Below, one piece after another: positions 1 to 46,628 of a stretch of DNA of 64,000 bases (positions are counted from its first letter, which is position 1; the number at the start of each line of letters is the position of its first letter). Origin of the DNA: Hysterium pulicare CBS 123377. Taxonomy: Eukaryota > Ascomycota > Dothideomycetes > Hysteriales > Hysteriaceae. The position numbers and the translations under genes are program-made. The notes below the pieces were generated by a model. That model was not told where the DNA came from and did not search any database. It was given only the letters and a program-made list of their open reading frames with translations. The stretch covers positions 1 to 64,000 of the forward strand of contig AJFK01000302.1 of the NCBI GenBank assembly GCA_000467715.1. Direction: 5' to 3'.

Positions 1-290
1 TAATTCTAATCTAAATTCTTAAGGTAGATTTAGTAGCTATAGTAATAGCTAGCAAAAAATATAAAGGTAGCGTAAGAAACTTCTACTAGTAAAGTAATAA
101 TGCGCTAAAATAAGTTAGAATATTATAATATTATTAGATTAAAGATATAATATATATGCTATAGTAGCATAAAGTATTATAGATCTAGAACTATATAATA
201 TATCTGTTGTAGTGCAAGAAAAGCTATATTAAACATAAGGAACTTACATTAAAGGCACTATTATATACCATTTGGTTAGGGAACTAAGAC
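1..290. repeat. AT-rich, probably RIP-mutated repeat edge
   Basis: The first 290 bases are very rich in A and T, full of TA steps and with no open frame. At about 290 the composition changes abruptly to ordinary fungal DNA. This is the usual look of a repeat damaged by repeat-induced point mutation (RIP) in Pezizomycotina. No family can be named. It continues left beyond the window. Confidence 0.6.
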
Positions 291-3200
291 TACGACAGCG
301 AGCAAGGTTACTGTTCGGAGGCGAGAGATTGGAGTGTAAGGTACTTGAGGCTGGAGAAATAAAGAGGACATATCTACAAAACTACTATCAAGTTACAATA
401 GGAGAGTAAAATGACTTGGGAATAGTGTTGGTGTTGTTCGGAAAGCCTGCAAGTTACCGTGGAATGGGGATAATAGAATCAGGATAGTGAGGACTCGAAC
501 TTGGGTACGGCAATGGAAGAGGAAGTCAACTTCGCGATGGTGCATGGTTTGTAACTTTATGGAAGATTCGGTCAAACACCCAAGGGAAGGGAGGTAAGAT
601 TGCGGGATAAGAGCACGTAGATCCGGAGATTCACGTAGCAAACTACTGTCAGTGCACCTAGCAATCTCCTGGGTTATCGCTCACGACTGCTGATTATGTA
701 GGTGTTATTCTCGGCCTCTGCAACCACTTCCCAGCCCGCGGTATGTGTACTCAAAAGATCTTGATGGTGATTAGTGATGATCCTGCAGGAGGAGAAGGAA
801 ACTGTGGCGGCGTAGCTTTGGACTATCGGAGGTAGTATGGTTGCTGGACGAAAATGAGGGCGGAATATTATGCCTTGTGTTGGGAGAGATCGAGTGCCGT
901 TGTGGTGATATTGACTCTGGTACGAGTTGTCAAGTGTGACGAGTGGGAACCATCAACAGGCGTAGGTCGCGAGTATCGCTGACGATTTCCTGACTTGAAA
1001 CAACTCCACAGACCGTGGTATACCTACTCGAACAGAGTGTAGATGAATATGAGACGCGAGTGTTACGTTGTGGTCGATACAACGAGTGAGGATTTCGGAG
1101 CCAGGTCTTACCAATGGATTGCCACGAGAGAGGATGGAGCATGATTGCTGCTTCCAAAAAGAGTTCATGACGGGTTTGTAGTGATTGTTGAAGTGAGCAA
1201 CATGCCAATTCGTAAGAAATCCTCTGCAGTGATATGACATCCCGTCTTAGGAGCTATTGCCGTGAATCCACAGAGTTCCAACCAATGCAAAGGCAGCATT
1301 ATGCGTAAGGAAGTTACGGAGTAAGCTGGAGGCAATCTCTACATTGTTAATGGGGCGTAATCGATTGGAACAGGACTGATTCGGCGGACGGAATCTGACT
1401 GCGGAGACTCGACGAAAGAGGGTGGTTTTAGAGGGGTTGCGATGAAGCCTGGGAGACGGGCACGGCTGCGGGAACATGTCAGTTCAAAGACCTGATTGAA
1501 TTATGGGGAGATGCCTCTCACCTCAAGGTTCGGCTGTAGTCAAGCTACGCCCTTGCCTGGCGTGCTCGATCTGTATCTCAGGGAGGTTATCGGTGTAGAA
1601 AGTTGGATTGCAGCTACTTTTGGTCCGAAAGGTATCAGGCAGGGAGGAGCGGAGGTAGTTGCTGCATTATGCTGTCGTTGCATTCGATTTTTGAGGTGAT
1701 TGAGGATGAGGATGTGAATTGCAATGGGCTGGCGATCATGCACATTTGACACTGCGAACAACAAAGTCAGTCTTCGGACATCGTGGATCGAGGCGGGAAG
1801 AGTCTTGACATTAGCTGCCACCAACCGCGAGTACTCTGACTCTCCCCTGGATCTGCTGTCCCCACAACAAGGCCATGTGCGTAGTGTACTAGAGAGATGG
1901 AGGGGAGGATCAGAGACGACCAACACGTCGTGGAGGGATGTTGATTGCGGTAGAGGGCCTCTGTAGCGAGTAATTGGTTAATTCCAGAGAGATTCGGGCA
2001 TCTACTTCATGCCTCAGCCTCCGTTCATGCTCGGTGGTATACATCATTGACCTCCGCCAGTTCACCTTGCGTCCACACGATAATATCTTTGTTAGCTAAG
2101 CTACTCGGCTTAATCTGAGACATTATCCTGGCATGTATCCTCAGCTAATGTGAGACAGCTTGCTTGAACCGAGAATGTTGGAGAATGAGAGGCTGGCGAT
2201 GATGACAACCGAGGTTGAGTCTGACAGAGGGTACCATCGGCGAGGTTTAGATAGGATGACGGGGATTGTGTGATGCTGTCATGATCAAGGGATTGAGGGA
2301 TTGGGGATTGCGGAATTGAGGATTGCGGAATTGAGGATTGTGGATTGCGGATGACCTTTGCTGTGATTAATAAGTCAGTCCTGAACAATCTTGTAGGTTT
2401 AGGAGGAGTCTACGGACCGCAGCTTGGTATCGTAGCCGATTCTCAGCCCGCAGATGCTGGCTTTGAAGGTTGCATCTCCTGGCATTGTATTCGATCCTAT
2501 CTGCCACTGGGGGCTTTGTCCGCCCATTGGAACCACTCTGTATACTGAAGGTATGTGTGCTCGAAGGATTTCGTGGAAGGATCGGAGGAGACTGCTGTAG
2601 TATAGTGCGGTTGAGTTACGACTATTGCGATGACTGGTATGGGTAAGAGCGACATTGCCTGTAGGAGTCTGCAATCTATGGGATGTCTGAACGCTAACGC
2701 TGTGATCCATGTGCCAACTCCCGACTTACACTGCAGTTCAGCCACTTCAATATTCCAACCTTTGCTATAACATAACGTACGAATCCACGCCTCTGTACCT
2801 CCTCGGAGAACGACGCTCGAAGCAATCTCTCACGGCTATGAGTATTGTCGTTTATCCCTGCGTCCTGCCAGTCGTCCGATGTTTAGAGAGATGCGTGGAA
2901 GAGAGGCGGAGGCAGACGCTGCACCGTAATGGTGAGGACAGGAGCATCGTCCGATGCAGAGAGTATGATCGCTAGAGCACCGAGCTGGATGAGATCGATG
3001 GGACATGAAGGCGGCTGTGACGGTTGACTCTTGCTAGATGAACTACTCCATGAATAAGAAGTCAGTCTCTGGATCTTCATCTGGCATTTTATTGAACGGT
3101 CCAATCACCTGGATGCAGGATTCCCAGTCATCGCCGAGTTGCGTCCGGCAATGTTGGAGCTCCGTTGATGCCTGGAAACAGCAGCGATTGAGTCCAGTGT

Positions 3201-6200
3201 GAATTGCTGCTCTATCAAGAGATCTCTGCCCCCAGAGTCGGGCTTTGAAGCTTCGAGCCAATAAAGCCAGCCATCTAGTCGTCCGAGGCCTTGTGGTAGA
3301 ATCGGCGCGTCTATCGATGGGACATCATTATGGGGAGCGATGCCGGAGCGATCGACGACGCCCGGGACTCAATAGAACATACTAGCGTAGAATCCCTGAA
3401 TATCGTAAGTAAGAATGGAGATAGTTATCGTGTGTCTAGGCGTGCATCACCATGAAGAAGTTGGTTGACAGATGCTGAGCTCGGATGTTCGATCTCACGG
3501 ACTTGGCAGCGGGGCACACCTGGCACGCCCACCCCTGACAGCCCACGCTGAAACGCGACTTGAACGCGGGGTCACATCACCATCTCCAAGCAAGCAGCAA
3601 AGCAACGACGGCGTAATGTGTTCATGCGTTTCTAACGACGAGGGGAATTCGAACTCGAAAGAGAGCCCGATACACTTGGAAGGCTCCCCTGGCGATTTCC
3701 GGACTTCGATCAGTGGAGCCATCGGATTCGGAGATGGCTACGAAGAAGTCGGTCAATGCCGCAAGCACGCTGTGTCCTGTTGACCGCCGCTTTCGCTTCT
3801 GCTTCTTTGGCCCTTTCTTATAAGTTTCCCGTCGGGTCTTTCCTTCTGGGTGTAACATCCTGGTGAAATGGGATGAGCGACGGCGAAGTCTGCATGGCGA
3901 TGAGAAGTCAAGGATAATGGAGAGGCAGGAATCTCCGATATGGGTTGTTTGAGCCACAGTAGCCTGTTCTGCGATTGCAACTTTGGAGCTCCCGAAATGG
4001 AGACGTGCGGTGTGGTTGGGACTTGGGAGTGGGGGGATTTACGAAGGCATTGAGGAATCTTAGGGATCGCAATGGGAACCATCAAATCTCATGACTAGTG
4101 ACTCGTCGATGCGAACATAGCTCGAGAGACTCGAAGGATAACATAGTCACAAGGCGAGTTGAACTACTTTATTACATAGGACGCCATTGCCAGAAGTTGT
4201 TTGAGCCAGCACCACGAGAGGGCTGTAACGGAAGAATGCGACTATCGGTGACATCTCGGAATAACGAAGAGCTCAGGGGCGCGCGGATTGGACGAGTCTA
4301 ATCAGACGCGATCACTGGTTCGAGAGTGGAACGAAGTTGGTGGCACTACCGCCTGTGCTTGGGAATCGGTACGGTGATCAATGGTGGTGACGGAGAGCTA
4401 GCAGGACGAAGATACGATGAGCGCGAGGAGGAAGAGCTAGTCAGATTCATTCGTCGGCGAGACCCTATGAGGCCCCAGAAGCAAACCTCTTGTAACTACA
4501 CGACGAAGAGCTGCATGGCTTGGGGCAAGAGCCATGAGAAGCGTGAGGCTTGTAGCGTGGTTGTATAGCATTCAAGCTTAAGAAATAGTGAGTGTTACTG
4601 CTCGGTGTGATGACCGATATTGCTACGTTCAATTCTCTGGCAATCACACAGTAACTGACAAGAAGAAGATGCTGACATGTGGCATCGGCGAGGTTGTAAT
4701 GATGTTGAAGATCTACTAGATCCCAGCGATTTCATCGACGAGCCTGTAAAATCTTTAGACGGAAGATGTTGCAGCATGTCATCGAAAGCTTAACTCTGGA
4801 GCAACATCGGATCGGCGGAGGATGAGCCAGATACAACATTCAAGATCCATCGAAGCTGGAGGCAATGGTCCCATTCTGCCAGGGAGCGCTGATTACTGAC
4901 GGTGCTGCACGGTTGCACGTAGGTTACGGCACACAAACGACAACTTCAGGTTCTAGGCTGATCTCTATTGCCATCCACGGTGCTGTCTTCCTATTACTTG
5001 TGGTGGGCTCAAGCACGGCTGGGAGGTTGACTTGGACGGCAGCGACAGAAGTCAGAGCCAGATGTAACGTCTCAGGTATGACAACCGAGTCGTAGGGCAC
5101 TCCACATGGCGGATAGGTCTTAGAATCTTTGCAGAGAACATGTCGAGGTTCATGTCTTCAACTCGTGACGATATGCGATCTGTGAGGTAAAAACGCAGCG
5201 CAGCGCATCACCATGCAGCTGCGAGCCCCTATTGGAACTCGGGAGGCATATGTTGGGCAAGTTGGAGATATCGTACACTTTACGGCCGCATGTGTGACCT
5301 TGCGCTGACGGCAAACAAAGAGTAACTATTTTGGATGGCGAGAAGTATAGACTTCGATGCTTCTCTGATTTCAGCGAGAATAACATTGAGGTCAAAACCA
5401 ATGCCCACGCGAACTTGATGACGATCGATCGAATCGCTGTCCTTCACTTTGTGGGGTTCGTCAAAGCCGAAAGGCAAGCTCTGGAAATGAGATCCAGCTT
5501 GAGGTGATTGTCGTTCAGCATTAAGAATGAAAGCCGTGATTGAACTTGGATGTTTGACCCAAGAGACCCCAAGATCCGAGGTCAACAAGCGTGATACGTC
5601 AATATTAGGAAGTATGGACATGATGCTTGAATAGGATATGAACTTATCAAGCGTGTGAGTTCGGACTACAACCAATAACATGCTTGAGAAGAATGGAAGG
5701 AACACGGTGCTGCCGAGATCCAGTTGCAAGTGGTGAGGGGCCATCCTTGTGGCGATGTTCAAGTGCACAGAGTATCCATGAGTCATTGGAACAGTGAGGG
5801 AGCGGAAGATCGCAAAGGAAGCGGCCTCTGAGCAGGCCTGGGATGAATGACCGAATCTGCCGCCAGCAAGAAGGAGCGTAAGCTCGTAGACCGAGTGTTG
5901 GCCCAAGGGCATGGCCGGTGGTTCGTTAAGGTAGATTGGCGTTGAAAGACTTCAATCGCCCGGACGTGATGGAATTCAAAGCAAGGCCATCGTTGTATGG
6001 CTTTCACAATCAACAACAGAGCGTCGAATTTGATCTTTGGCTTCGACTATAGCTCCTGAAGGCTGTGCATGTGATGTGTGACGAAGTCGCTGAGCTGGGT
6101 GAGGCCGGCCATGACCTCCGCAAATGCTGATGATCTTCTCGAATTCGTAAACTTGCAAGAAGCCACAGCATTTGATATCAGATAATGGCGAGGAAGCTCG

Positions 6201-9200
6201 ACGGCAGGCCGCATTTTCGGATTGGTGATTAGTACGACAGATCCGCAGATCGTGAATCCACGGAGCCATACCGTGCTTTCGTGAACAAAGAAAGCATTGA
6301 AGTTCAAATGGTTGGGTGTGTGTAACTAGGCTTTGCTGTATGAATCTTTGGCCCGAGATGGATCCATAGAAATTTACTTTGAACTCCGCGATCCATACTC
6401 ACGAGCGACGGAAGAGAGACTGGAGATCGTTCATTGAACCAAAGTAGCCGTGCAGACTTCAGCTCACGAGAGAAGCGTTCGACTGAGTAGAAGCCAAACA
6501 ACGAGCAGTCCCTGGAGGAATCAACGGCAGCAGCGAATGATTGCTCGGAGCATGCTCATTAGTATGTCCACTCCGCTTCAGCGTGAACTCAGTAGATTCT
6601 GACCTCGGAGGTGATTCCACAACGCTTTCAACTCAAATGCCGAGGCTGCTGGGGTCATCCACGCTGGAATAACTGACTAAGTGAGAATGTCCGTCTACGT
6701 TATGGATGATGAAGCAAGTAGGGGAGAGCACAGGTTCCAGAGTACGGTCATATCTCAAGGGGAGTACTTGAGGCTGCTGAGAGTCGCATCTTGAGGCCGC
6801 GACTCCGGCGTAATTGCAGGAGTAGTCAGGGCACAGAGATGCTCAACCCCGGCAACTTTTGCATATGAATTGCCACGGAGCAGAAACGTTCCTGAACCAT
6901 GAAGCAGACTCTAGGTTGGCTACGATAGAAAGACGTGGAAGAGCTCCGTGTTCAACATGAAATTGGCGGTGCTCGAATTAATTTTGCCACTCCATTGGCG
7001 GCGGCGGCGGGCGCTGAGAGCCAGTGCAGGGCGGGCATACCATATATAGCAGACTGGTGGAAGGGGTGAGCTCGGCGTTGCCTTGGGTAAATGAGAATGG
7101 CCAGATATAGGGATGACATCAAATTTTAGAGAGTTACCTTGGCGCACTTGGAGCTGTCGAGAGTGTCAACTGGTGACGACGCATTTGAGGAACGAGCCAC
7201 GAAGCAGACGCTGCAGTGATAGCGGTGGGTATTGCAATGGCTGAGTTGTACGGGGAGGCCATAGGTAGTGCTACTTCATATATGCCAACATGGTATCAGA
7301 ATGAATCAGGCGGAGACCAGGTGCTCGTGGCTGCCGTCACGGCTGCCACATATCACACTACTTTCGAGTGCGGACACAATCGGGCAGTGAAATGATGTTC
7401 TTGAACATCCTGATCGATTTTGTGGCTCTCAGTAGTGGAGAAGGAATAGTTGATGAGGTCCATGAGCCGAGATCTCGATGTGATCTTCAAGCTCATTGAC
7501 ACTTGCGAAGTACGAAACACCCAGGAAACCAAATTCGTTCAGTATCGACCAATGACATTCACAGGGGGCGATATACACTTGGTTTCCATGCGATGAATTA
7601 GGACCAAGAAGAACTTAGGACAGCATCAGCAGGCTGCATGATTAGGCACCGGGCATCCCGTAGGATGTGGCGAGAGGAGACAGATATGATGGGGCTTGGA
7701 GAGTAGGGCATCTCATGTCGATAAGTGAGGTATGGACGGCGAACACGATGAGTAAAGAATCTTATTCTTGAATCCAACTTGAGTGAGCCAAGCTTTTGAG
7801 GCAAAGCTGCAAGACCGATTGCCAACGTAGGCAACGAGTCAGGTCTACATGGACTGCAATAAACGCAATGTTGCCTACGACTAGCAAAATTTGCATTGCC
7901 CACAAAGTGACACTCGAAGCCAGACTTAGATATCCGAATATGATTTGAAGTTCGAAGTCGAATTCTCGTGAGACAATGAATTGGGTGGTGGGGCCAAAGC
8001 CCGAGCCGACGAAAATAAAGCGGGTGACGTGGTCAAATTCAGTAGCTATGCGGCAAGGCCGTGAATGAATGAGCTGTGGACAAATTAATGCCATTGAAGG
8101 GATTTCCCAGATCTGGACGATGAACGCGACAATGAGTACAGGCGGAGAAGGCGTCACGAGCAAGAAAGGAGTTTGTGGCAATTGGCCGCACTTCGTGCTT
8201 TGACGGGCATGGAGAAACTGTGTTCTGCGGTCCGACAGCTGGGGTTGTCATGTTGTGAGCTGTCTTCAATGCAGTTAACATATTGAGGGATGCTAACATA
8301 GATACGGGCTTGAATAGACGGGGCGCAATGAATGAGCATGGAGCGTTTGAAGTACAAGGCCACAGATGCTGGACGGGAACAAGAGCTAAACTATGGCGAC
8401 TGCGCGTGTGTTGAGGGTTGACAGTAACCTCACGAGAGCGAAGTGGTAGGATTCAATCACCCGAGCAAGCGGGAAGGGAACGTAAAGTCGAATGGCGTGG
8501 AACGCAGAGGTAGTGCGGAGCCCAAGGTCCAAAACCTGCAGCGGCTGATAGTGCATATGCTGAGGAGCATTGTTGGCGGGTACAGAGCCCACTCGGAGAT
8601 TCGTGAGGCTCAATCAATCTGTTGCAACCCGGTAAAGAGTTCAAAGGGCAGGGGATGTCGCGCATGACGGGAAGCTAGCACTAGCGAGTAAAGCTACAGT
8701 AGACTGAAGGGCGCCTTTGGACCTACGTGGGTGAACTCAATATCGAGAAAAGTGATGGTAGAATGCGGGGAGGGCCTATGAAAGCAATTTTGGACTGTAC
8801 GCTGCAGTGCTCTAGCAGGACGTGAGCTACGAACGAGTGGTAACGAGTTGGGATGGGCTCAGCTTACGTTGTGACAATGAAGATCTTCAACATGGAAGAT
8901 GTAAGTTAGAAAATCAGTAATACTTCGGACATTCGAAGCCACATTCTTGGAATGCTAGGCGCAGAGGCTTTGGCTGGAGGAATGTGAGTAGAGAAGTAAC
9001 TGGACTTGGGGAGGCAGGGAAGGGGCATCGGCGCTGAATCAAGCCGAATCATGGGATGGCCTGGAAGAGATTATGAGAAAGCATAGCCGAGAAGAGTCCG
9101 CGGAGTGAAGGGTTACGGATCACCGGCGAGAAAATAGATGAATACCCCATCGGACAGCAACGGCGAGGGAAACCAAACGGGAAAAGCGAGGGCGCTGGAC

Positions 9201-9392
9201 ACGCACGTGTGATAAGGAAACTGCATGCCTATTAGAAGGTACGGATCGCGGGGATTACTCAACGAATAAGAGATAGGGTTGAGGCCAGCAAGCCCGAGGA
9301 TATGGAATAGTTGGGTTACCTAGCGGTGGGTTGCTGGAAGCTGGAGTGCATGGGGCGAATGCGTGAGAGACTCTTCGGCCGCATAAGTTCAC
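291..9392. other. gene-poor, purine-rich intergenic DNA
   Basis: About 9 kb in which the longest open frames (up to 210 codons) resemble no known family. The + strand is visibly rich in G and A over most of the stretch. A few short phrases recur, such as GTATGTGTACTC near 742, GTATGTGTGCTCGAA near 2552 and TACTCGAA near 1026. They resemble the exon-like part of the array at 12.2-13.4 kb, so this may be an older, eroded part of the same array. I see no RNA gene or recognisable transposon here. Confidence 0.45.
2285..2350. repeat. short tandem repeat, GGATTG-rich
   Basis: Degenerate tandem repeat of a 6-8 bp unit (GGATTGA or GGATTGC variants, partly arranged as 15-bp steps such as GGAATTGAGGATTGC). 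It reads as a simple microsatellite. Confidence 0.7.
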
Positions 9393-9580
9393 TGATGGGG
9401 TGAAGAAGAGTTTGATTAAGCTCAACCACGCGTAAGCGGCGATTATATTTAAAGCTCTCATTTATAGTTGTTGATTTCATTCAATGATGTAACGATGTTG
9501 CTTTGATTTTGCGTTGAGTTCTCATTGGTATTTAGTTTCTTTGGTTCTGGTACGCTATCGTCAACTGATGATGGGGTGAA
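9393..9580 (-). mobile_element. short non-autonomous retroposon-like element, copy 1 (long form)
   Basis: A 164-bp segment (9405-9568) is flanked by a 12-bp direct repeat TGATGGGGTGAA (9393-9404 and 9569-9580), as expected for a target-site duplication. The same left end (GAAGAGTTTGATTAAG) begins a second copy near 11284. Copy 2 lacks the right-hand third. If the element is read on the minus strand, the shared end is 3' and the variable end is 5', which is how LINE-driven retroposons are truncated. No ORF, terminal inverted repeat or clear tRNA-type promoter is seen. Confidence 0.65.
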
Positions 9581-12220
9581 TTGTAATCGAGGAGTACGAA
9601 CGACCATTGAGAACTCGAACATCTGGCTGATGTGGATGCTCCATCTCGTTGAAGACGGAGTGACGTACAGCGACAGCTGAGAGCTAAGAATTGTCAGCGT
9701 AGAACCATAGTGGTAGAGTGTATGTATGTCCGGAGCTGGAGGAGATTGCACTCCGTTGAAAGTTTGTAGTACACGAAGATGTTGACCCAACGATTGTGTG
9801 CAGGTCTTTATCGTGGACGGGGCGGGTGACATACTCATGGGAGTTGAGGATAGCCAGTTGCTAGAGGGATGCATCCGATGATTGGAGTCGAATGGCGAAG
9901 ACCCGAGCTGTCATCGAACTTGAAAAAGTGTGAAGTAACAGCAGGTGCAGATTGCGATCGCCTGATATCGCTGAGGGCCATGGTTTACGGATAATGTTAT
10001 TGGTGTGACGATCAGGGAATGGAGACATGAAAGAAAGGAGAGATCTCGAGCAGATATCCTTCAGGGCAAACCTAATCATAATTCACGATATCAGCTGTGT
10101 CGTGTTCGAGTAGCCTCCGCAGAAGACTCACTGATGATGCATCTGTAAAGTGACTTTGATAATAAATGACGGGTTCGGAAGAGAAACTTGTGCTCGGTCT
10201 ATTTCGAAGGATGCAAGATCGGGAGATACTAAGATGTCAGCTAGGTGACAAACATCAGCATCGATGGACGCAGGGTAACTCGAGCAGTCATAGCAGACGT
10301 GGTTGTGGAGTGACGAAAACTGTGAGCCGTGGAGGTGAGTCAAGCTCAAGGTCCGCATACCGTGGAAGTTTGGTGTTCAGAGTAGCAGTTTCTGCCCGGA
10401 GAATGTCTTGTTGACACCGTTGAATATCTTGCGTTGGCTGGAATTCAAATCGATAAAATTGAAGCTGGAACCTGGAATCTAAGTCCATGATTTTGAGAGT
10501 ATACGATTGTGGATTTGAAGAATGGCTGCATGTAGTCAGCGAGGAAACAGATCAGGACAAAGTCAGGGGTTGCTTAGCAGCCTGGCTCATTACTGTGGAG
10601 CTTGGGATTGGAACTGACGTATACCCAAGGACGTGAAGCTTTCAAGGAAGATATCGGCGAAATAGAAAGTAAGCCAATGGCAAGGACGCAAGGCAGTGGG
10701 GATGCCGGGACTTACCTCACAGCAGTGGCAAAACTGAGGAAGTGGACTGGTGCTATTCAAGCTGTTAGCAGGAATCAGGCACGAAAACATGATCCGAATG
10801 CATGAATGACAGCTCAGAGCTATCTGTGAGGGATGTTCAGGGCAGATTATGGACACACAAAGCAGCTGTTATCCGTGGCTTACCAACTGTGCCGCTTGAC
10901 CGTGGGAATAGCGAGAGTTTAGTTTGGTCGAGATCGTTAGGTTGTGACGCGAGTGACCAGCGATGATGTGAAATCCGAGCTGCATAGAGTTGTCCTGAAT
11001 TGGGGTCAGCAGTAGATGAATGTGTCAAAAGGAACATAACTGTGCGATCCTGAAGTAGCGCAGGACTTGAAGACCATTGCAGATCCACCGACTGAGGAGA
11101 GCCAGATCGTGGATTCTTCTAACATGAAGAGGGATGGCGTTTTCTGCCATCGCAATGGAATGGTCCGAGATGTTTCTAGACCGAAGTCTTCATGTCTGAG
11201 ATCTGTCAGTGAGTAACCATCGAAATGATGACCATACATGCCCTAAATAACGCTTGCAATCGAAGCGTGGAAAGAAGATGTGGAAGAAGAGTTTGATTAA
11301 GCTCAACCACGCGTAAGCGGCGATTATATTTAAAGCTCTCATTCATGGTTGATTTCATTCAATGATGTAACGATGTTGCTTTGATTTTGCGTTGAGTTCT
11401 CAAAGAAGATGTGGACTCTGTGAAGGATCGGTAGATGTTCATGATAGCTTAACCGGGAATGGTCGTACAAGTTAAACTCGCCGTAGAGCGGAAAACTCGG
11501 TCAGTGAGTTGTCAGGGAGAGAAGATGGTGACCATACATTCAGGAGATCAAAGTCACGACGGGGCTGGATGCTACGAGATAACACGTCAGTCATGAATGG
11601 ATTCTTCTCGGAGTGAGCAGAGCAAACGTATGTGGTACTGTGGACTTCGTACCTCGAATCGGATATGGAACCACCTAATGAACCTCTGGAAATTGGAGAC
11701 GTACCATCCGGTGTGGAACTGGGGTGAAGGTCTTATATTCGATCATCTGGGAGAGGACAATGAGCACTCAGTACTATAGTGGTACATTGGCTTACGGGTT
11801 GTAATGATTACGATACTTTTCGAGATTGGAAAGCTAGGAGATGCGAAAGCCGACGGTACGGAAGCGATGCCTTCTTGTGGAAGGACCGGTGTCGAACACA
11901 CGCGCGGAATTGTGGCTACTGCGAGACGTCAATGCCAGTCCAAGTGGGTCCCGAAGATACATGCCCGTGGAAGTCCTAATTACTCTGAATTGAGGGCTGG
12001 ACGACATAGATTGTCACAAGTCAGTGAATGCTCGGAAAAATTAAGTAACTTTTGCTTACGGATCAGGAACGTTGGATGAGTAGCGTGCCCATCCGGATGA
12101 TGAAGTCAGGGAGGCTATGCAGGATGTCAGCAAATGTTCAAAGAGAGAAACTGGGAGAGGGGTGTGCTTGGCCGAGAGCGTGGCTTCGTTGTCATTGGCT
12201 AAGTGGAAAGTGGGATGATC
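9581..12220 (-). repeat. eroded left part of the intron-like array
   Basis: Minus-strand intron-like segments recur irregularly. One at 10319-10359 has donor GTATGC, a TTGAC branch-like site and acceptor CAG; another ends at the GTAAGC donor near 10900. The phrase ATACATGCC or ATACATTC recurs just beyond donors near 11235, 11535 and 11955, as it does in the clean array to the right. Branch-like GTCAG..AATG blocks occur near 12017 and 12119. Spacing is less regular than at 12.5-13.4 kb. No coding frame is seen. Confidence 0.4.
11271..11414 (-). mobile_element. short non-autonomous retroposon-like element, copy 2 (truncated)
   Basis: A 118-bp segment (11284-11401) nearly identical to the left two thirds of copy 1, flanked by a perfect 13-bp duplication AAAGAAGATGTGG (11271-11283 and 11402-11414). 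The duplication shows this is an insertion into pre-existing DNA. The high identity to copy 1 suggests fairly recent activity. Confidence 0.7.
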
Positions 12221-12225
12221 GTAAC

Positions 12226-13426
12226 CTGCATCATATCAGTCAAAAGTCAATGTCTGGGAGATGGGTGTTTACTATTTTTAATCACACCGAAGAGTCCCAG
12301 CTCAAAAGTAGAAACGAAGGCCAGCGCTTTTGAGAAGTTAGCAATGGCTCGGAATCAACAGGAGAGATGCGCACGCAAGGACATTGAAGATTTTCCACGG
12401 GGTATGGAGTGGACAAACAGCCTGTGGCAAGTCATTGAATATTAATGAGCATGGCACGACAGGCAGTAATGGAGATCCGGAGAGTTTGGAACTGAGCTCC
12501 TGTATCAAGTCAATCAAACGCAGGGGCCTGGGATAATACATGTCTGCACGCCAGGAGGATTTATTCTAGCCAATTCATAGAAGTTCGAGTATCTGCGAGA
12601 AGTTATCTATGGACCACGGAAGCAAGGTTGATACGTACTTGCAGTAGATCAGTCGGTTGCTCCCCTCGATTCCGGGAGATTCGGTAACTGCGGGATGTCA
12701 GTATATGTGCTTGAGGATGGAGAGGTACTTATTTGCGAAGGGCTGAGGAGTCTCAACTTGAGCGATGGGAGACGAAGAAGCATCTGAGAGAAGTCAATGA
12801 ACGTTTGGCAGAGCGGCATGATGCTTGCCTGCTGCGGACCAGGTAGTTGCCATCGGCGTGTTAAGGAGATGGTGAATCTGCCAGAAGTCAGTCAATGCTC
12901 ACGAAAGCTAAGAGAGACCTGCCGGTGAATACCAGTTTGTGCAATCCAATCGAGGTACCTGTCAGATGTCAACCGATGTCCAGGAGCCTGGAGTGATACA
13001 TGCCAACTGCGAATCGTATGTGTCTCGACGAATCCAAGAGACGGGGAATCTGCCAGCAGTCAGTCAATGTCTACAAAGTCGGGGGGACTTACCGGTAAAG
13101 ACCGCTTGCTACGATCCAGTTTGAGCTGCCTGCCAGAAGTCAGTGAATGTTCGGGGAAGCGGACGGATGGATACCCATGAAGACCGGATTGCTGGAAGTC
13201 GAGGAGAGGAAAGAGACCTGCTTCAAGTCAGTTGACGTCCACAATGATTGGGAAAGATACATATTAGCAGACGGCTTTTGACGAATGGAGCGTACCTGCA
13301 AAGAGTTAGCAGATGTCCACGCATTCGAAGTAATACTCACCTCCAAAGACCAGACGGTTCGACTCCAGAATGACGAACTGGAACCTGCAAGTGTCAACGA
13401 GTGTCCATGATGATAGGAGCACTTAC
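12226..13426 (-). repeat. regular array of intron-like segments (~90-bp period)
   Basis: Twelve clear segments begin (on the + strand) at 12226, 12500, 12593, 12688, 12784, 12878, 12959, 13050, 13130, 13218, 13296 and 13385. Each is 40-47 nt. Read on the minus strand each has a GT donor (GTAAGT, GTGAGT, GTATC and similar; GC at 12784-12828), a branch-like block (CACTGAC, TTGACTGAC, GCTAAC) and a CAG acceptor. Most steps are 78-96 bp. Degenerate units fill the one gap, near 12330 and 12422. The 35-50 nt pieces between them are also alike, often ending GGTCTTTACCG-like before the donor. So the unit is a tandemly repeated exon-plus-intron. Splicing five exons gives an open frame that then stops, so protein coding is doubtful. 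Confidence 0.7.
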
Positions 13427-13527
13427 TTGTGAAAGCCCAGTTCAGCTCGGTGGCCCTCTTGGCTTCACCCTGAGGTTACTAGACCCCAGCACCACGATGA
13501 GGTGCGAGCATCGCTGGGGAGGGGAAA

Positions 13528-13695
13528 GATCGAGTCCTCGACAGAGTATCAATCGACCAAAACCCCGAGACTCGAGTCCTCAATTGAGTATCAATCGGAG
13601 TCTCTTTTAACGTGCATGAACTCCGGGTCCTCCCTTGGAGTGTCAACCGGCAGAGGCACGGGCGGCGTTGGCCCTCCACGGGAGTATCGACAATC
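13528..13695. repeat. four diverged 42-50 bp tandem repeats
   Basis: Four copies of a unit built around GAGTCCTC...GAGTATCAATCG start near 13528, 13570, 13620 and 13669. Later copies are more diverged. They lie exactly where the + strand changes from purine-rich to pyrimidine-rich. Confidence 0.6.
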
Positions 13696-16153
13696 ATCCG
13701 CAAGGAAAAGGAAAAAGAGAGCGGCGGGCAATAGACAAAAGCTCTGGTATTTCGAAATTGAATGACGTTGTTGGGGCAGTAGCTAGAGTGTGCACTTTCC
13801 TTCTTTCCAAGTGGCCGCAGTAGTCCAGCAGAGAAATCCAGAGAAATCACAAAGTCCCACGTCTTCGATACCAAGCGCTGGACTGCACTACCGGAAACAA
13901 TTCTTCTCATATCATCGTTACAAAAAGTTTAGATGCACAAGTCATTTTCGGAGGAATTGTGTTCGCACGCCCTTATCCACTTTCGTGAACTCTGGGGAAA
14001 TCCGGGGTTGCTGCGGAGCTCCCACATCCTTCCATCGTAAAGACGGGACGACTCCTCGATCACGCAGACACCACAACTCCGCCATGCAGGCATTCCAGCT
14101 GCACGGGTCCTTTTTTTTCTCAATCGCTGCTTTGTCGAGGCTCCATGTTTTCCCTTTAGCTGGGCGAATTCCTCGGTTTCGTTGGCTCGGCATATGTCCA
14201 ATACCTTGCCCACCGGAGCGATGATTTACAATCTGCCCATGAATTAACCGGCGGAACGCCTTCCGCCCAAGTTCTGATCTTCGATCCAGTTAAATCGATT
14301 ATATCAGCTTGAACCACCTGTGCATACCTTTCCAAACGACTTTGATGCGCCACTCAGTTTCGCATTCGGAGCGTCCGGAGGTCCAGCTATGACGAATGCG
14401 TTCTCCCAGGCTCATACTCGGCTTCGAAGACCGTTGCCTACTCTGGGAGCTTTTACCTCGCGTGAATCGCGCTCTCCAGCTGGTCAGGAGCTACTTCAAG
14501 GAATATGGCGAGGTACGTAAGATCTTTCCCACACAAGTCAGCGATAGTATTACTCACAGGATGTTTCAGAACTTTGTGCATTCCCATGCCCAGGCATTTC
14601 CTCCCCCACACAGTCCCATCGGTGACGACTTGCGAGGTGGATCCCGAATACTTGGGCGGCGGACTTGGGCGGCGCCACACTGCGGAAGCTATTTCGAACC
14701 TTGGAGGGAGCCAGGGGCTCGCATGGAGCTTATTTGAACATCACTTACATGGATATTACGCTCAGGACAGTTTCACAGATCCCGCGGCATCTAGAACACG
14801 ACTCGCACAACTCTCGACTCCTCCGAGTCATTTGGGCATAAATGGAGCGCGAGCGATGTCGGTCTACCAAGTCCCCTGATTTGTGCTTTCAAGCTTCTTC
14901 GTGTCCATCAACCGTGCGTGTCATCGAAGATCGCCTTTGGAGTCGGCGGAAGTCGTCAGCGGCGGCCAACCACATGATCTCGCTCGGGCAAACCAACCTG
15001 TGTATGTGGCTTGACGTTTCTATGAGATTCGAATACTTCCAAGAATTAGCGGACTCTAGAAACGTGTCCTAATTGAGGTTTACCAAACTCATCTTCAATC
15101 ACCACTCAATTAAATTCGACATGCCCCAGTGCTGGGTGTCTGCAGCTGGAATCCATTCGCACTTCAATCCCTCAATTACCTCTCGAGTGCTCTCGTCATG
15201 TCCGATATTGATCTCCCGAACTTTTTGGCTCCCCCTCTTCTTTTCATCAGGCGGTTCATGGTCGCTCAATTCAATACTTCGACATGAAGCCATCAAGAAG
15301 AGGCGAAACGAAGGAGTTCGATCGGATCCGCGAATACTCTACCCATATCTTGATTTGATCTTCAATGGCAGCTCCGCCACGCTCTCTCGATGCTGACGGA
15401 TTTTTCGTTGAAGTTCGCACATAAACTCCAGAGTCCATTTTCCTATCGCATCGTCGCTGACCTCCGCCGGTAAACTAGGATGTGCTACTAGAGAAATACT
15501 GGATACTTCTGCAATTTGGAGGATAAGCATTTTGTACGAGCCTGGAAGCTGTCCAGGATTTGTTCAATGATTCTAGAAAACCCGTATACCCGCAACGTTG
15601 GTTTGGACTTCAAAGCCACCCATGCCTCAAGAACCACGGGAGTATCTATCAGCAACGCTGGCTGCAATTCTGGCAAGCGCACTCCTCTGTTAACACCTCG
15701 CTCATCCTCGTCCCTTACTACCATACCATTTGACTCTAACAATTCGCTAATAGTGGTTCTATTCGCCAGATTTCCACCAGATTAGTATTGATGTCTTCTT
15801 CCTTCGTGTGGACTGCGCGGACTTTAACAGCTTTCAAGTATAGGAAATGGTTCCAAAATGGAACTCTGCCGTACTCGCTGAACCAAATTCTGCAAGCTCG
15901 CCTTGTCTACTAAACCCGTACGATTACGGCTACCATACCATACCTACGTTCATCGCCAACAAAGCCGTGGTTGCTGGTTTACAGGGGAATTCCGGTAAGT
16001 ATACTATCATGACAATCTTATCCCTGCTGACAAGATTCTGTAGCCTCAAGTCCGTCCTGCGTCTCCTCGGTTTGGCTGGATAGCTTGCTATTCCGCCGTC
16101 TACCTTATCCTCAGCCCGTACCTCTCAACCAATGTCATCTTCGCTACAATCAT

Positions 16154-16239
16154 ACAACAGGTAGTACAGGGGGGATCCCTCACACATGTTCGGGCAACCA
16201 TCAATCATGTTTCCGGGCGAAGCCATGTCAAATTTCTTT
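16154..16239 (+). repeat. diverged ~85-bp repeat, copy 1
   Basis: Shares blocks GTAGTACAGGG, GGGCAAC, GGGCG.AGCCATG and CAAATTTCTTT, in the same order and spacing, with 17240-17321. The two copies lie about 1.08 kb apart in the same orientation. This points to an old tandem duplication of roughly 1 kb, most of which has since eroded. Confidence 0.6.
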
Positions 16240-17239
16240 TGATAGCTAATACGAAGCTGGAGCGTAGGGCCAATTACTCACCTCATTGAGCCCGAAACAT
16301 CACCACGTTTTAAACGTCCGAAGACTCCATCGCTACATTGTGGTGTCCTTCAGATACCAATTTCCGTTCGGCGAAGAGACTGTTATTTCTCCTATTACTC
16401 GAGCCATAAACATCTACTCAGCTCCACATCTCTTTGCCCTGAACGGCAAGATTATGACCATTTTATTCTCAGACCTTCCACTATTTGGAGAGCGCAGTCC
16501 TACATCTACGCCATAGAAATTATTCCTCCGCGGTCCATTGCAACGGTGTCGGAGGCCTTCCTCATTTAACCATTGACCTCCGCACGCCGAAGTCTCCTCT
16601 CGCAGTCTCTTCTTGCAGCTCACCTCCGCGTGAAGCCGGAGCTCCTTATTAGCTGCGACTTTCTAATGCGAAACGTTACCTGCGTCGCTTCTTGACAATC
16701 CTTCAATCCAGCGTCCCACAGTTTCGTTCTTTGCGGCTGCAACGTTATCTCTCGGCCAGCCAGTACTTGCAAGGCCCTCAAATACGATTCATCGTTGACT
16801 GCCACAGTCTAGCCACCGATCAAACCAGTTATGACCAAAATTCTACCTCTTCTTAACCTGTTCCACGGCCCAAGAAATTGAGCTGTGCCGTTGCCGATCA
16901 ACAACCGCCAACCGCTAATAACTCAACAGCTTCAACTATCGTCAAACTACATTAATGGCAAGTCTACCGTCAAATCAATGTCTACTCTACGCTAATAAGA
17001 GGTTCGGATGCAAATAGCTATGCACATCGACCTTACTGCGATCTCATTTCAAATCTACGTTAATACATCCAGCTCGCCTTCCCACTCCACCAGAACCCCC
17101 GCCTGCGAATTCCAAGGTGCTCCTTTCTTCGTCACACATGCCGCTCGAACCTTCACCCCTGCTATACCACCATGACCGATAATTACCACCGACCAGCGTT
17201 TTCTCCACCGACCAGGGTTTTCTTCACCACATCTATAAC

Positions 17240-17321
17240 ATACAGGTGGTACAGGGCGGGCTTTTCACAGATGGGCAACTATTTCATGCTACCATAGGGC
17301 GGAGCCATGCCAAATTTCTTT
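17240..17321 (+). repeat. diverged ~85-bp repeat, copy 2
   Basis: Second copy of the repeat at 16154-16239. The copy ends just before a GTAAGT donor-like site near 17331. Immediately upstream, at about 17189-17231, a 20-bp phrase (ACCGACCAG.GTTTTCT.CACC) is itself tandemly duplicated. Confidence 0.6.
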
Positions 17322-20300
17322 GGGTAAGTTCTAGCCGCTCGCCTGACTGAGGACTTGACACTCCAGCCAGCCGAGGCCCTGGATTGATGCGATCACTAAC
17401 ATCTCTTTGACGAGAGCAAGCACAAATCTGTAGACAAGTAATCAACCATCTTATCCATAACTCTTCTTCACCCTCGCAAGTTGTGAATTCGTGGTGAACT
17501 GGCAATGCTTCCATTTCTATCTCAATTTTTAGTAACCAACCCGTGTCACTATGCCTCTCGGGCGTTCAACCTCACGGTCCAATAGTTCTGACCCTCGCAG
17601 TCCAATTTTGGATTGCGCAGTCCAATCTATCTACTCGATATTTCATCAGTTTGGTTTTCTCACTCCAGTAATACATCTCAACCTGCCTACTCCAAACCTT
17701 CACATGTCTTGCCATCGAACAATGTAGTCGTGCAGTCCAATGCAGCTGTCTCTTTTTATCCTCTCACTGCGGAGTCAAAAGGATTGGCACTACAATAGTG
17801 GAGTACTTAGACAACCAGAGGAGCAAAGCTTGATTTCAAATAATGTCCCTGGACTTTGCATCTACCTAGATGACTATGTGTCGGCATTGAAAGATGGATT
17901 GAACTGTCCCGGTGGGAGTGTGGTAATTCAAGTTACCATTCTGCTAAAGTTCACAAACAATGCTCCAAGCCCAGCACAACCTCCGCAGTCGAAACACTAC
18001 GGACTGCGCGAACTAGAGCATCAAATCCAAGCGTGCGCCTCAAGAGTGATCTTACTCCGTCCTCGAAATCGACAATGAAGAAATCCTGTGTCAACCCCTC
18101 GGACGCGTTCGGCGACCTGAGCGCTTTCAATTTCGAAAGAATATCGAACTTATTATCGAGTGCTCGGAAGCCAATTTCCAGGACCCTCGATACCATGCTG
18201 TTGAGCGGGGAGATCTCCAACATGCGCAGATCGTCGAGAAGTCCTACCTGGCCGTCTCTGCGCACTCCAACGGAGACCTGGAAATCGAATACAAGGACAC
18301 GCCAGATTATCAGAGCTGTACGCGATCAAGCTTGAAGTACCCCGCAGACACGATGTATGATGAGCTCCCTATACACGATGTCCACGAAAGTGAGTGATAC
18401 TCATGTCAAACCAAGCATGGAGTGGGCAGGTCTGATAGCAATGGACGGTTGGGCGAGAAGGATCAATCGCCCTTCTACTCCGCGCCCGCGAGTATCAAAG
18501 TCCATGCAGAACCTTCTAATCTTCAGCTTGCTCGCTGACATGAAGCTAGCCTTCCAGGCACGAAGTCTAAAGAGATAAGTGTTGGGCTTACCGTGTTGGA
18601 GTACAGTCCCCAAAATTGGGCCCTTTGTCCGTGACTATCACAATTTGACAACACCCTTACCCAGCCCACGTCACTACTACGCTGGCTGCTCCTAGGGACG
18701 TTGCGGGGTTTCGGTGGATTGACCGTTCTTTAAGTCATCAATATCTTGCCCGTATAGCCAGTGGGTTCCTTTGGTCTCCCTAGCCGAGATTCAGCGGTAG
18801 TTCCAGCGGATAGGACGGTACGTTCTTTATTGTGGTGGCAGATTTGGCGTCTTAGATTCTTGGAGAGCTCTAATTTTAGTCGGAATTACAATGGTTAAAG
18901 AATCTGAATAGCAGAATAAATTTACTACTCAGAATTCTTCTTAGTAACTTGGAGATTTGACCTTGTGCTCCATCTTGGATCATCCGCTGTCTTTGGAACG
19001 CCTCGGACACAGGACTATCCTCTTGCGTACTATCTCCATTGCTAGTTAAGTTTTTACTAGATAATCAGATCACCTTCTAAAATATTGTTCAGTACTCCTC
19101 TATGTGACTGGGCTTCATAGTCTCATAACCCAATCAAAATCCACGGTGGGGGCCGAAGTGGTGCAAGAAGTCAAATGGATCAGATTAATTGGAAACAAAA
19201 GTTCGTACGCGCCAGTGTGTTAATGAGCTACTGACCATGATATCGAAACCACGGAAACGGAGGTAGCGAGAGTAGGTTTGCTTCTGGTCAGCTAGTCAAG
19301 TGGTCTGCTGAGACTGGCCGAGGTGTGACAGAGCGACTCCATCAATTGCTACGGACTCGAGACCAATTGTTTTGTATCACCTGTGGAGTTGAAAGGTACA
19401 TACTCTTGATCTCGACTAATAGAGTAATCCGCACTCGACCTTGACTATTATAGACTTGTTGCGCTGCGAACGCCATCAATGACAAGTATCGGCTCTTCGG
19501 TGGACTTCGGGTTAAGATCTTGCGCAAGTACGGACCGGACATGCCGCCCTTTCGCGACAAAAGATGATCCCTTGATATGGGAATGTTGTGGAGAGAGGAA
19601 AGAGGACGCGTGGCGACCAGCTGTGTGATTTTTTCAAGGGCTGAAGCAACTCATCGCTCCTTGGTCTAAGCAAAGGCATGCGATGGGAGTTATCGTCGCC
19701 ACAGCAGCCCAAGACAACTACGCGATCGACTGGGAGGAAACTGGCTTTGGACCGCACACCAAACTGGGCCAAGGTTGATACTGGCACTGCACACCGGCAA
19801 TTTGTACTACAGGGCTGAAATGCATAGGTGAGAGTTTCAAAATACTGAATGAGTGAGCAATCGTACGGGTGGCAGAACCGGAGTCGGAATTAGCAAGGTT
19901 GAATATAAGTTTGAATTGTAAAGAAGAGCTTTGATGTTCATGGTCGTTGCTGACATCCTGCGTGCTTCACCAACTAAGTACAAAGAAATCGACATATGGA
20001 GCACGTGGACCAATTAGGGAGAAATATTCCAGGAAGAACTGTTCGTTCGTACTTTTGAGATACTACCTGTCCGCCCATGGACCCCAAAAAGCGTATCCAA
20101 CATCGAAGAAACTCGACCGCCAGGAAGGCAGCCCAAAAGCAGACCAGTTTCACTGTCGTCCGGAAAGACGAAGGCATCCAACTATAACCCGCTCGGCTGC
20201 CCAGGTATATCAAGAAGCAAATGAGAGGATCCTTACCGCACGTGTCGGTTAAGGAGAGGAAAAGACAAGATGTAAAGCTAAAAGAGATTCGTCCATGTTG

Positions 20301-24638: not shown

Positions 24639-27363
24639 CTAGAGCCGACACGGATGGATCAGATCTGCTGAACTTACTGTCACTGCAAACTCGTCTTCGG
24701 GACCGCTTCTGGAGGATCCAACCACGCACTGAACAGGCTGACCGCAGTGGCAACGATCATCACGATGGCAATCATCGCGGTCCAAATTGATCAGATGGCT
24801 TTCAAGCTGAATGTGGGCTGGCTCGATGCATAAACGTCTCCCGCAAAGATGTGAGACTTCGCGGGCCTCTTCACCCTTAATCTTACCGGCTCCACCTACA
24901 CAGTCGTCAGCGATAAATCACACAACCTGGAAAGTGGGCGCTTACTCCAGATGAGGAGTGCCCAATCGTTGGAGGTTAGTTGGCCAGTGGCCAGCAGGAC
25001 CACCCACGTCAGTGGAAATGTCTCCGTGTGGTTACGATGCCCGCAGAGGCCGCTGCACGCTTTAAGGGTGATAACCACTCTGTGGTTGGCCTCGGTTTTG
25101 GCAAACTGGAGGCAGTGACCCTCCAGACCACCCTTTGCATGTTGGTCAACGTGATCCCAAATGAGGGCATTCTCCCCATCCAGAAACCAAGGTGGGAGGT
25201 CCAGCAGGTTTGGCTTGTACAGCCTGAGAAGGCCCCAAATCTGGAGCCCCGCATGGAATCTGAACTTTCTGTGACCATACGCTCGGACAGCGCACACCAA
25301 TCGCTGATAATCTGGATCGGACTTGAGAATACCAGCCAAGCTGACAATGGGCGCCTTGACTATCGGCCGTGGAGTGCTTCGAGCCCTTTTCCGGATAGCC
25401 GTATTTGTCGCCTCTGCAAACCTTTTTGCTCTGTTCCCTACCTTAGACAGCCTGGGGCTGGCTGGCTCATCGTCATCCTGCGAATCGGGGATCGTGCAAG
25501 GGAATCGGCTGGGCTGCTTAGGGGACGGAAAGGTGTTTGCGTAGCCTCGGACTGACGGAGGAAGTTGCACGGCAGTCAAGAACCGTCTGCTGGGGTGTGG
25601 GCCTATTGCAGTCGTTTGTGGATGCTGATCGTGCTTCCGAGCTGACTTCTCGCCTGCCCGGTCGTTCCACGGATTTCTCGGCAAGATGGAATTCACGGAT
25701 ATCTCTCTTAACGGCCTTGGCTCCGTGTATGTAGTGTTGGTTCCCTTCAGTTTCGATTGACCAGCCTCGCCGTTGTGAGCTCCGCTTCCAACCGACCTTC
25801 CAGCTGAGTTTGAGACAGGATACTCTGGTGGCCTCGTGATCCGGAGGCCAACGCGCGTATGCTCCAATGGTTGCACTTCACTATCGTTGGCCAATTGACT
25901 CCCTCTAGTAACCGGCCGCGGTTGTTGGGTGCTCTCGCCCTCTGCGGCCTCGTGGTTGAGAGCCTCTGAATCCTCCACCTGCGCTGCCCTGGAGCGTGTG
26001 AGACGAGCTGACAGGAGGCTGCGACGCTCCCCTGCATCACTATTCTCGCTTTGGTCTCTGTAGTCTTCGTCTGACTCTCGGTCGTTACGCTCATCAGCCC
26101 TCCGGAGTTCGTGCTCCTCCCTCCTTCTCTCGTCCCACTCTCGCGCTTTCGCCCCTTTACCTTTTCGCCTATGCTTCTTTCTAGAGTAAGAGGTTAGTTA
26201 GTTATCATGCACTCCAGATCCCAGCCTTGAGTACGACAGTCCACGGTCTCTCTCACGCGGTGACGGAAGCCACTTGTGGACTATCGCGGAGCCCAAATGG
26301 ACTGTACAGACCACCAGGACCTCCTCCTGGCTATCCGTGAGCATGAACGACTTACGTTGTCTCTCCTGTTCTTTCTAGCGTGCTAGGCTTCGAGCCTTGC
26401 TGTCCATCTTTGGGCTTGCCCTTGCCCTTGCCTTTCTTCCTGCCCTTGCCCTTCCATTTCTTCTTGCCCTTGCCACTTTGCTTCTGTTTAGGAGTGTTTC
26501 TCTTCTGCTTTGGAGCTTGAGGTCCCAGAGCGACCGACTCGGGCTCGGGCTCGGAAGCCGAGCTTTCGTACTCGCCAGCATCTTCTGTTTGCTGTCGAGC
26601 ACGGGGTTCAACCAACTGGGACTCGGAAGCGGGGCTTTCGCATTCGCTGGAGTCCTCTGGCTGCTGTTGATCATGGGCTCCAAGTGACTCGGAATCGGAA
26701 TCAGATCCATCTGATCCGCTGGGGTGGATATTCGACTCTACTATCGCACGGGTGTTTGCGTCTTCATCCTTGCGTTGCTCTTCCTCATTGTCTCGCGTTT
26801 CGTGTTGCCATGCTGCGTCCACAAGCTCCTCAAGCCACCCCATTGTAACGCCGTCTTCGTGCTCCCGTGTTTCCTCTTGGGGCTCGTGGACATCGCCAGC
26901 TTCATGGACTTCGCAGGTCTTGGAGGCGTCGCTGCCCTCCTGGTAGTCGTCGACCTTGCTATCATCACCCTCGCTCAGGCTTTCAATATCCTCCCAATCA
27001 CCCTCAGGGTCTTCCTTCTCTATTGTCGCCTCCTGGTCCTCGAACACCTCCTCGTGCTCGCTGTCGAAATCTTCCCAATCCCCCTCATCCTCCTCCCCTT
27101 TGTCCTCCATTGTCTCCTGCACACGCACAGGCGAATGCAACTTTGACGGCGAGGTGATTGGGGTATGAAAGGAATCATCGGAGCTTTGGCTTGAACAGGG
27201 GGGCGAGGGTGTAGCCCCGTGGTCGAAGGCTGCCTTGTCTTCGAGCTCAATTGGGACTTCGAATTTATCCTCGGCCGCCGGCTCCACAGGTTTTGAACTC
27301 CTTTCAAGTGGTTAATTCAGGTGGCCGGCTAGAGGAGCTTGATGCATCTTACTTGTTCCCCAT
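24639..27363 (-). CDS. I-PpoI-like His-Me finger (zf-His_Me) nuclease-domain protein, 815 aa, four exons
   Basis: My model joins 27363-27353, 27300-26356, 26180-24946 and 24895-24639; introns are 52, 175 and 50 nt, and the sum is 2448 nt, in frame. The start is the ATG at 27363, giving MGNK. Residues about 1-320 are disordered: acidic (GDWED repeats) and then very Lys/Gly-rich. A globular part follows from about residue 590. The C-terminus holds H746-x-C748-x4-C753-x4-H758-x8-N767-x5-C773-x5-C779-x-C781-x5-C787. This matches the spacing I recall for I-PpoI: catalytic His98, metal-ligand Asn119 and zinc ligands C100, C105, H110, C125, C132, H134, C138. The active-site His and Asn are both present, so DNA cleavage is possible but unproven. 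The last exon could splice once more at the GTAAGT near 24675; otherwise TAG ends it at 24639. Neighbours are two GETSYR-family genes. Confidence 0.85.
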
Positions 27364-45852: not shown

Positions 45853-46628
45853 ATGCATTTTCTATGTCTTCACGGAAAGGGTACAAATAACAAGGTAATT
45901 GTCTTGAATACAAACAGGGACTGAAGAGCTACTTACCTCTCTCAGGTTTTCGAGACGCAAACTGGTATTTACATCATTCAACGGTTTTCGTGAGCGAAAT
46001 GGATTGACCTTCGCCCACAGCTGCTTTGCGATACGCCATCAATGACCACCACACCTACGAATTCGCGGAAGGCGTTGTCAAATCTGAAATGAACATGGAA
46101 ATTCGCGAATTCTTCCCGTCCGCGGACGATTACTTCGATTATTTTAACGACGATGACTATGGAAGTATGTCGAAGGTGCTGAAAGACCTTGATGCATTTA
46201 TCGCGGTTGAGGGTCCTTTTGATGGAGTTATTGCTTTCTCGCAGGGCGCTTCTGTGGCTTCCACGCTGATGCTGCAACGGATAAGGCAGAATCCTGCTGA
46301 TGAAATGGTGCATCCAGTCTTCAAGTGCGCAATTTTCTTGGGCGCGGGGGTTCCGTGTGATCCCGTAGAGCTTGAGAGGGGCCGTGTGAGGATGATGAAT
46401 TATGCAGCGGACGGTGAAGTCATCAAGGTACCTACATCACATATCTGGGGAGAACTTGATTCATCGCCTTATCCGCCTCAGCTGGCGAAACTGTGCTCCC
46501 GCGAGCAAAGAAACGTGTATGTTCATGGAGGCGGTCATACAATTCCCGGGTCTCATACAAACGAGGCCCTGCGAGAAAGCGTGAGGGTGATTCAACGCTG
46601 TATTTCCATGGCACAGTATAAACAATAG
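45853..46628 (+). CDS. FSH1-family serine hydrolase (222 aa, three exons)
   Basis: Exons 45853-45894, 45946-45964 and 46021-46628 (introns 51 and 56 nt; 669 nt in frame). The protein starts MHFLCLHGKGTNNKVFETQT, the usual FSH1 opening. The alpha/beta-hydrolase triad is visible: nucleophile Ser94 in AFSQGAS, Asp167 in WGELDSSP and His193 in GGGHTIPG. Members next to reducing PKS genes often release or trim the polyketide from the carrier protein. Divergent from the PKS with a shared promoter, it is the best candidate for that role here. No signal peptide is seen, so it is probably cytosolic. Length is normal for the family. The first two exons are short and easily missed by automated prediction. 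Confidence 0.9.

Follow-up and report, generated by a model that had tools for sequence, protein, structure and literature searches.

A tandem array of exon-intron-like units with preserved 3′ splice signals, lying behind a predicted HDV-like ribozyme in Hysterium pulicare

Fourteen consecutive exon-intron units were found head-to-tail on the minus strand of a 64 kb stretch of Hysterium pulicare DNA, with acceptors running from 13385 down to 12226 at a spacing of 78–101 bp; just ahead of them, in the same orientation, lies the motif of an HDV-like self-cleaving ribozyme (13519–13453), whose end is 26 nt from the first donor. The stretch, referred to below as the window, covers the opening 64 kb of contig C238 (168,832 bases) in a genome of 37.2 Mb and 596 contigs. 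The array, the pattern of similarity among its units, the ribozyme motif with its covariation and the agreement in strand are established here; transcription, splicing, cutting by the ribozyme and any function we infer from the sequence. The reading that we prefer, with a probability of roughly 0.4, is that of a minus-strand unit, probably untranslated, whose transcription and splicing go on today or ceased only recently, and in which a ribozyme is followed by a tandemly duplicated stretch whose acceptors have been under selection.

The intron-like segments are 39–48 nt long and are given here from donor to acceptor, the second coordinate of each being the acceptor position. The first two carry strong donors, 13426–13385 (GTAAGT, branch TTGAC, CAG) and 13340–13296 (GTGAGT, branch CTAAC, CAG), and are followed by 13260–13218 (weak donor GTATCT, CTGAC, CAG), 13174–13130 (weak GTATCC, CTGAC, CAG) and 13092–13050, where the donor is again a strong GTAAGT (CTGAC, CAG). 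At 12999–12959 (TTGAC, CAG) the weak donor GTATCA at 12999 has alternatives in GTTGGC at 13007 and a GC at 13003, and at 12918–12878 (CTGAC, CAG) the weak GTCTCT has a GC alternative at 12922. The eighth segment, 12828–12784 (TTGAC, CAG), has no GT at a length of 38–50 and offers only GCAAGC. Then come 12728–12688 (weak GTACCT, CTGAC, CAG), 12638–12593 (strong GTACGT, ATAAC, CAG), 12539–12500 (weak GTATTA, TTGAC, CAG), 12460–12422 (very weak GTCGTG with a score below 0, ATGAC, CAG), 12374–12327 (weak GTGCGC, CTAAC, AAG) and finally 12272–12226 (weak GTAAAC, CTGAT, CAG). From the start of the branch-like pentamer to the end of the AG the distance is 14 bases, apart from the units at 13385 (13 bases) and 12327 (15 bases). 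A first-pass annotation of this DNA, made from the letters alone, had described twelve such segments, mostly 78–96 bp apart and each with a branch-like block and CAG. The array and its regularity stand, with 14 units in the run and spacings that extend to 101 bp; a branch-point-like block is present in every unit (TRAY in 14/14), and the acceptor is CAG in 13 units and AAG in one.

That the tandem array is real and lies far above chance expectation, as the first-pass annotation had proposed, was borne out by motif counts, a profile search and a scan for chains. The pattern YTRAY-N6-CAG occurred 10 times in the 1.3 kb between 13500 and 12200 on the minus strand against a mean of 0.2 and a maximum of 3 in 2000 first-order resampled sequences, a count which is descriptive only, because the pattern was picked after the array had been read. 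A unit profile built from 11 array units and searched over the 64 kb window recovered its own 11 units and four weak neighbours (13459–13385, E = 0.005; 12082–12012, E = 0.005; 12000–11919, E = 0.06; 12161–12118, E = 0.13), the last three of which mark weak, decayed further units on the minus strand between 12161 and 11919. The best match beyond the array had E = 0.67, so that by this search the array stands alone in the window. When acceptor modules at intervals of 70–115 nt were linked into chains, these reached 12 members in the array and at most 3 elsewhere in 264 kb (the window and 20 regions of 10 kb). Over the whole 37.2 Mb genome, the 22-nt core was found with up to 3 mismatches in three array units and at one stray place outside, and the array DNA as query matched only itself, in a profile-free search that strongly diverged copies could escape.

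Both parts of the unit recur. The exon pieces were alike among themselves (z = 4.3) and the introns much more so (z = 13.5), with none of 300 controls as high in either case, which supports a unit of one micro-exon plus one intron with both parts recurring by descent, in keeping with what had been proposed from the letters. The likeness between exon pieces and introns was not significant (z = 1.4, 25/300 controls as high) and a lag of 44 was unremarkable; an origin of both halves from one 44-nt repeat was accordingly rejected. Smoothed self-similarity peaked at lags of 167–169 and 337, at merely 0.269 against 0.255 expected. The best internal match covered two units, 12866–12971 against 13038–13142 with 73% identity, and the array therefore grew at least partly by duplication of unit pairs.

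Within the units, similarity was concentrated at the 3′ splice signals. The seven splice-critical columns (T, R, A and Y of the branch point; C, A and G of the acceptor) had a mean identity of 95% over the 14 units against 59% in nearby columns, an excess not reached in any of 200,000 column permutations, although this comparison favours the acceptor columns, at which the units had been delimited and aligned. No unit within the run was omitted. The AG was kept in all 14 units, as was TRAY, and its R position was occupied by G in 11 units, by A in 3 and by a pyrimidine in none. Over the final 22 nt of the intron, similarity beyond chance amounted to 0.81 per nt; it was 0.23 over the first 22 nt and 0.14–0.21 in the exon pieces. 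The non-critical columns of the last-22-nt block scored 0.41 per nt, also above the exon pieces, and splicing alone may therefore not explain the conserved block.

The donors gave a different picture. The best GT at an intron length of 38–50 was scored in each unit against 186 ordinary introns of the same genome (lower quartile 4.6, 5% point 2.2); these introns were chosen via joined open frames and a score favouring GTRNGT, so that some false ones are included and the quartile may be too strict. Four of the 14 donors reached the ordinary lower quartile (5–9% by chance), 9/14 the 5% point (18–22% by chance) and 12/14 a score above 0 (34–38% by chance), while a GT of any kind at this length was present in all units except that at 12784 (13/14 against 52–54% by chance). 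Array donors are thus above chance yet much decayed, whereas the acceptors are intact. The claim that each segment has a donor could not be upheld, with only four reaching the ordinary quartile and one lacking a GT; likewise, the expectation that differences between units should respect the splice sites held for branch point and acceptor and failed for the donor.

The element upstream of the array, overlooked in the first-pass annotation, was reached through a 42-bp match between the window and contig C548. With up to 3 mismatches allowed, the ribozyme motif was found at 11 places in the genome, namely in the window, twice in C548 and once each in C217, C218, C16, C31, C381, C156, C163 and C300, and the reversed pattern at none. 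When the 11 copies were aligned to a nested double pseudoknot P1–P4, 95.6% of 227 cells were paired and 11 of 21 pairs had changed on both sides; none of 500 shuffles was as high on all five measures. The predicted cut in the window copy (minus strand) lies just 5′ of 13519, and position 13462 is, from known HDV ribozymes, presumably the site of the catalytic C. By reading of the alignment, P2 is imperfect in the window copy, and an extra base between P2 and P3 is present, being a C in 10 of the 11 copies; the C-G pair at the cleavage site was found in 11/11. Fungal variant HDV ribozymes have been described by Li and Breaker (2017, PMC5640933) as a set of 230 in 26 fungal species, two examples of which cut in vitro; their hallmarks are a C-G pair where cleavage occurs and one additional base separating P2 from P3. 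The element here shares with them both hallmarks and a covarying P1–P4, and is most simply taken as an HDV-like ribozyme of this known type, with predicted cleavage. At the curated Rfam threshold the ribozyme gave no match in the window; at a lax threshold two of the five copies tested matched HDV-F-prausnitzii weakly, with E = 0.8 and 1.2 and scores of 24.0 and 23.1 bits, where the curated threshold is 44. A transposon terminal inverted repeat was considered for the ribozyme 30-mer and dropped, the 11 scattered copies, the structure and the literature indicating a ribozyme.

The proximity of ribozyme and donor is found at other copies too. Within 60 nt downstream, 9/11 copies have a donor that reaches the ordinary lower quartile, against 31% of random positions, and 5/11 have one that reaches the ordinary median, against 9%, in a test devised after several copies had been viewed and on copies that are related by descent. 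A candidate acceptor 35–110 nt past the donor was seen at 4/11 copies; five of the 11 have only about 100 nt of downstream DNA. The five other copies with at least 1.5 kb of downstream sequence were checked for an array; none was detected in about 1.5 kb downstream of four of them by the unit profile, or in about 4.1 kb downstream of the C16 copy by the chain scan. The tight placing of ribozyme and donor on one strand, repeated at other copies, makes a transcription unit plausible.

By eye, four ribozyme copies (both in C548 and those in C217 and C218) lie very roughly 70–390 nt past the stop codon of an open frame that has the same orientation, and may therefore sit in 3′ untranslated regions of these putative genes. 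C548:28500–33300 holds two divergent open frames, one of 547 codons with a ribozyme roughly 250 nt past its stop and one of 458 codons with a ribozyme roughly 70 nt past its stop. Either ribozyme lies on the strand of its frame; the 458-codon frame contains about four 18-residue repeats. Short palindromic repeats were noticed by eye directly upstream of the window ribozyme (13520–13620, minus strand) and also upstream of one C548 copy (about 1240–1500 on the plus strand of locus L035, which has a 64-bp tandem pair as well).

Under the preferred reading, the course of events may be depicted as follows: A minus-strand transcript would pass the ribozyme at 13519–13453 and then enter the array, a stretch that would have grown by repeated tandem duplication of one micro-exon plus intron unit, partly as unit pairs. 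Selection would have preserved the branch point and 3′ splice site of each unit; most donors would have become weaker, and the exon pieces would have diverged. Because all branch points and acceptors are kept and few donors are strong, the strong donors at 13426, 13340, 13092 and 12638 would probably choose among the 14 or so acceptors and so give rise to a set of alternatively spliced non-coding RNAs. Cutting of the precursor just upstream would remove its upstream part and leave a 5′-hydroxyl RNA that starts with the ribozyme and carries the array. Against this reading stand the 10 of 14 donors below the ordinary lower quartile and the one unit without a GT at the right distance, as do the likeness of the non-critical columns near the branch point, the imperfect P2 of the window ribozyme, the candidate acceptors at no more than 4 of 11 ribozyme copies and the lack of an array behind the five other copies that were checked. 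A bolder version, which we regard as unlikely, is that of a new kind of non-coding locus in which a ribozyme is followed by tandemly repeated 3′ splice sites, a few donors vie for some 14 acceptors kept by selection, and cutting and splicing jointly set the fate of the RNA; more widely, fungal HDV ribozymes may lie just upstream of 5′ splice sites and set self-cutting against splicing. If the array is spliced, it would exemplify in nature how introns and exons can multiply together as a satellite with selection on the 3′ signals of the introns and not on the exons, and intron amplification through tandem duplication would become directly testable. If fungal HDV ribozymes favour sites just upstream of 5′ splice sites, as the nine of 11 copies in this genome suggest, this would provide a handle on their role.

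The main rival, doubtful in our view and still the strongest of the alternatives, is a relic: a gene, coding or not, that grew by tandem exon-intron duplication, lost its function and is now decaying. The weak or lost donors would be explained at once, as would exon pieces that share an open frame no more than chance predicts, outer units that fade towards 11919, and surroundings in which the first 20.5 kb of the window have only one open frame of at least 180 codons. Neutral decay should, however, strike branch points and acceptors in the same way as donors and exon pieces, and it is the former that are intact in 14 of 14 units.

An array acting at the level of DNA, either a minisatellite or a series of protein-binding sites in which the 22-nt block serves for binding or as a signal for recombination and only looks like a branch point with acceptor, is improbable. 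It would account for conservation that reaches branch-adjacent columns unneeded for splicing, for donors being the least conserved of the splice signals and for the confinement of the 22-nt core to the array. The positions that vary in the block are nonetheless those where splicing tolerates variation (R before the branch A, Y after it, A or C before the AG), and donors at the right distance exceed chance, which such an array leaves unexplained.

Less probable again is a gene that encodes a protein in rapidly evolving micro-exons, in the manner of aphid bicycle genes or schistosome micro-exon genes. The exon pieces do diverge faster than the introns, and dynamic programming found a stop-free splice path through all 13 internal exon pieces when GC donors were allowed, but such a path was matched by 30% of simulated exon sets, and with GT donors only the longest open chain was 9 of 13 pieces, matched by 8%. 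Codon scores of the exon pieces were at background (p = 0.13 for one common phase, p = 0.32 for the best phase of each piece) and under the 5% level of true coding DNA of equal lengths. The protein database yielded no match to the spliced reading at E ≤ 1, in a search whose control with a DUF7703 protein worked and brought up proteins of many filamentous fungi, though none near-identical among the best 120 of 1362. A coding gene with in-frame micro-exons was rejected on these grounds; the first-pass annotation had left the choice between a noncoding RNA and the remains of a gene, and with the codon signal absent the data agree better with a non-coding RNA than with a coding gene. A structured small RNA inside the introns was rejected too: the 11 of 14 introns that were folded had z from −1.05 to 1.57, the alignment of 11 units gave zero predicted pairs and no consensus fold, and no Rfam family matched in the 64 kb window at curated thresholds.

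That an introner-like element was inserted again and again into a single transcript is scarcely credible. Introns that are alike between far less similar exon pieces and the report of introner-like elements in Dothideomycetes (PMC4457414) might speak for it, but a single stray core match at 3 mismatches exists in 37.2 Mb, the array DNA matches only itself, and insertion does not yield the related exon pieces observed.

Spliceosomal introns, tandem duplication and fungal HDV ribozymes are all already known. The introns of snoRNA host genes are conserved while their exons drift, and the array likewise has introns better conserved than exons; it differs from such genes in having no Rfam family at threshold in the window and no consensus fold. 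Among published systems, tandem genomic duplication creating introns (PMC4974935) has in common with the array that splice sites are supplied by the tandem duplicate, but concerns one duplication in a coding gene, whereas here at least 14 units are present and a coding signal is absent. Multiplication of introns is shared with the introner-like elements of Dothideomycetes, which are described (PMC4457414) as many copies in unrelated genes; in the array it is confined to one place and the exon pieces are multiplied too. Schistosome micro-exon genes (PMC10526429) and aphid bicycle genes (PMC9168663) have many very short exons, as here, but encode secreted proteins, whereas the array has no coding signal and introns of 39–48 nt. 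Section 7 of PMC5640933 reports variable gene associations of the fungal variant ribozymes and has no mention of a downstream donor and array like those found here. Among the papers listed by text searches of open PubMed Central there was no description of a tandem exon-intron array with introns better conserved than exons, or of a tandem exon-intron array behind a ribozyme.

In the surroundings of the array, donor-acceptor pairs between 0.5 and 11.9 kb on the minus strand were within the range of resampled sequence and gave no sign of a longer intron-rich transcript. The genes farther right are fungal: an FSH1 hydrolase and pieces of a highly reducing polyketide synthase are among them, besides a fungal rhodopsin domain, GH114, AA9 and the DUF7703 protein, which has at most 66% identity to database proteins among the best 120 of 1362, the best named ones being from Pleosporales. 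An unrelated frame of the window, 26355–27311 on the minus strand, had no match in the protein database. The region with the frames 36653–44832 (minus), 46008–46628 (plus) and 48142–48711 (plus), which has the polyketide synthase pieces with the FSH1 hydrolase and an MFS transporter nearby, is likely a secondary-metabolite cluster. Two copies of a short interspersed repeat of about 120–165 bp were located at 9401–9563 and 11281–11405; this repeat has at least 43 matches in the genome including those in the window, many of them 88–100% identical, with 40 of 299 candidates scored. The plus strand is purine-rich from 1 to 13500 (0.52–0.60 in 2-kb windows) and pyrimidine-rich from 14000 to 18000 (purine 0.43–0.47), without long open frames; in a reference of 243 windows the mean was 0.506 with a standard deviation of 0.033, and a few others elsewhere were equally extreme. 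By eye, two similar stretches about 1.08 kb apart were also noticed on the plus strand at 16160–16250 and 17246–17330, and these are perhaps the remains of a duplicated gene.
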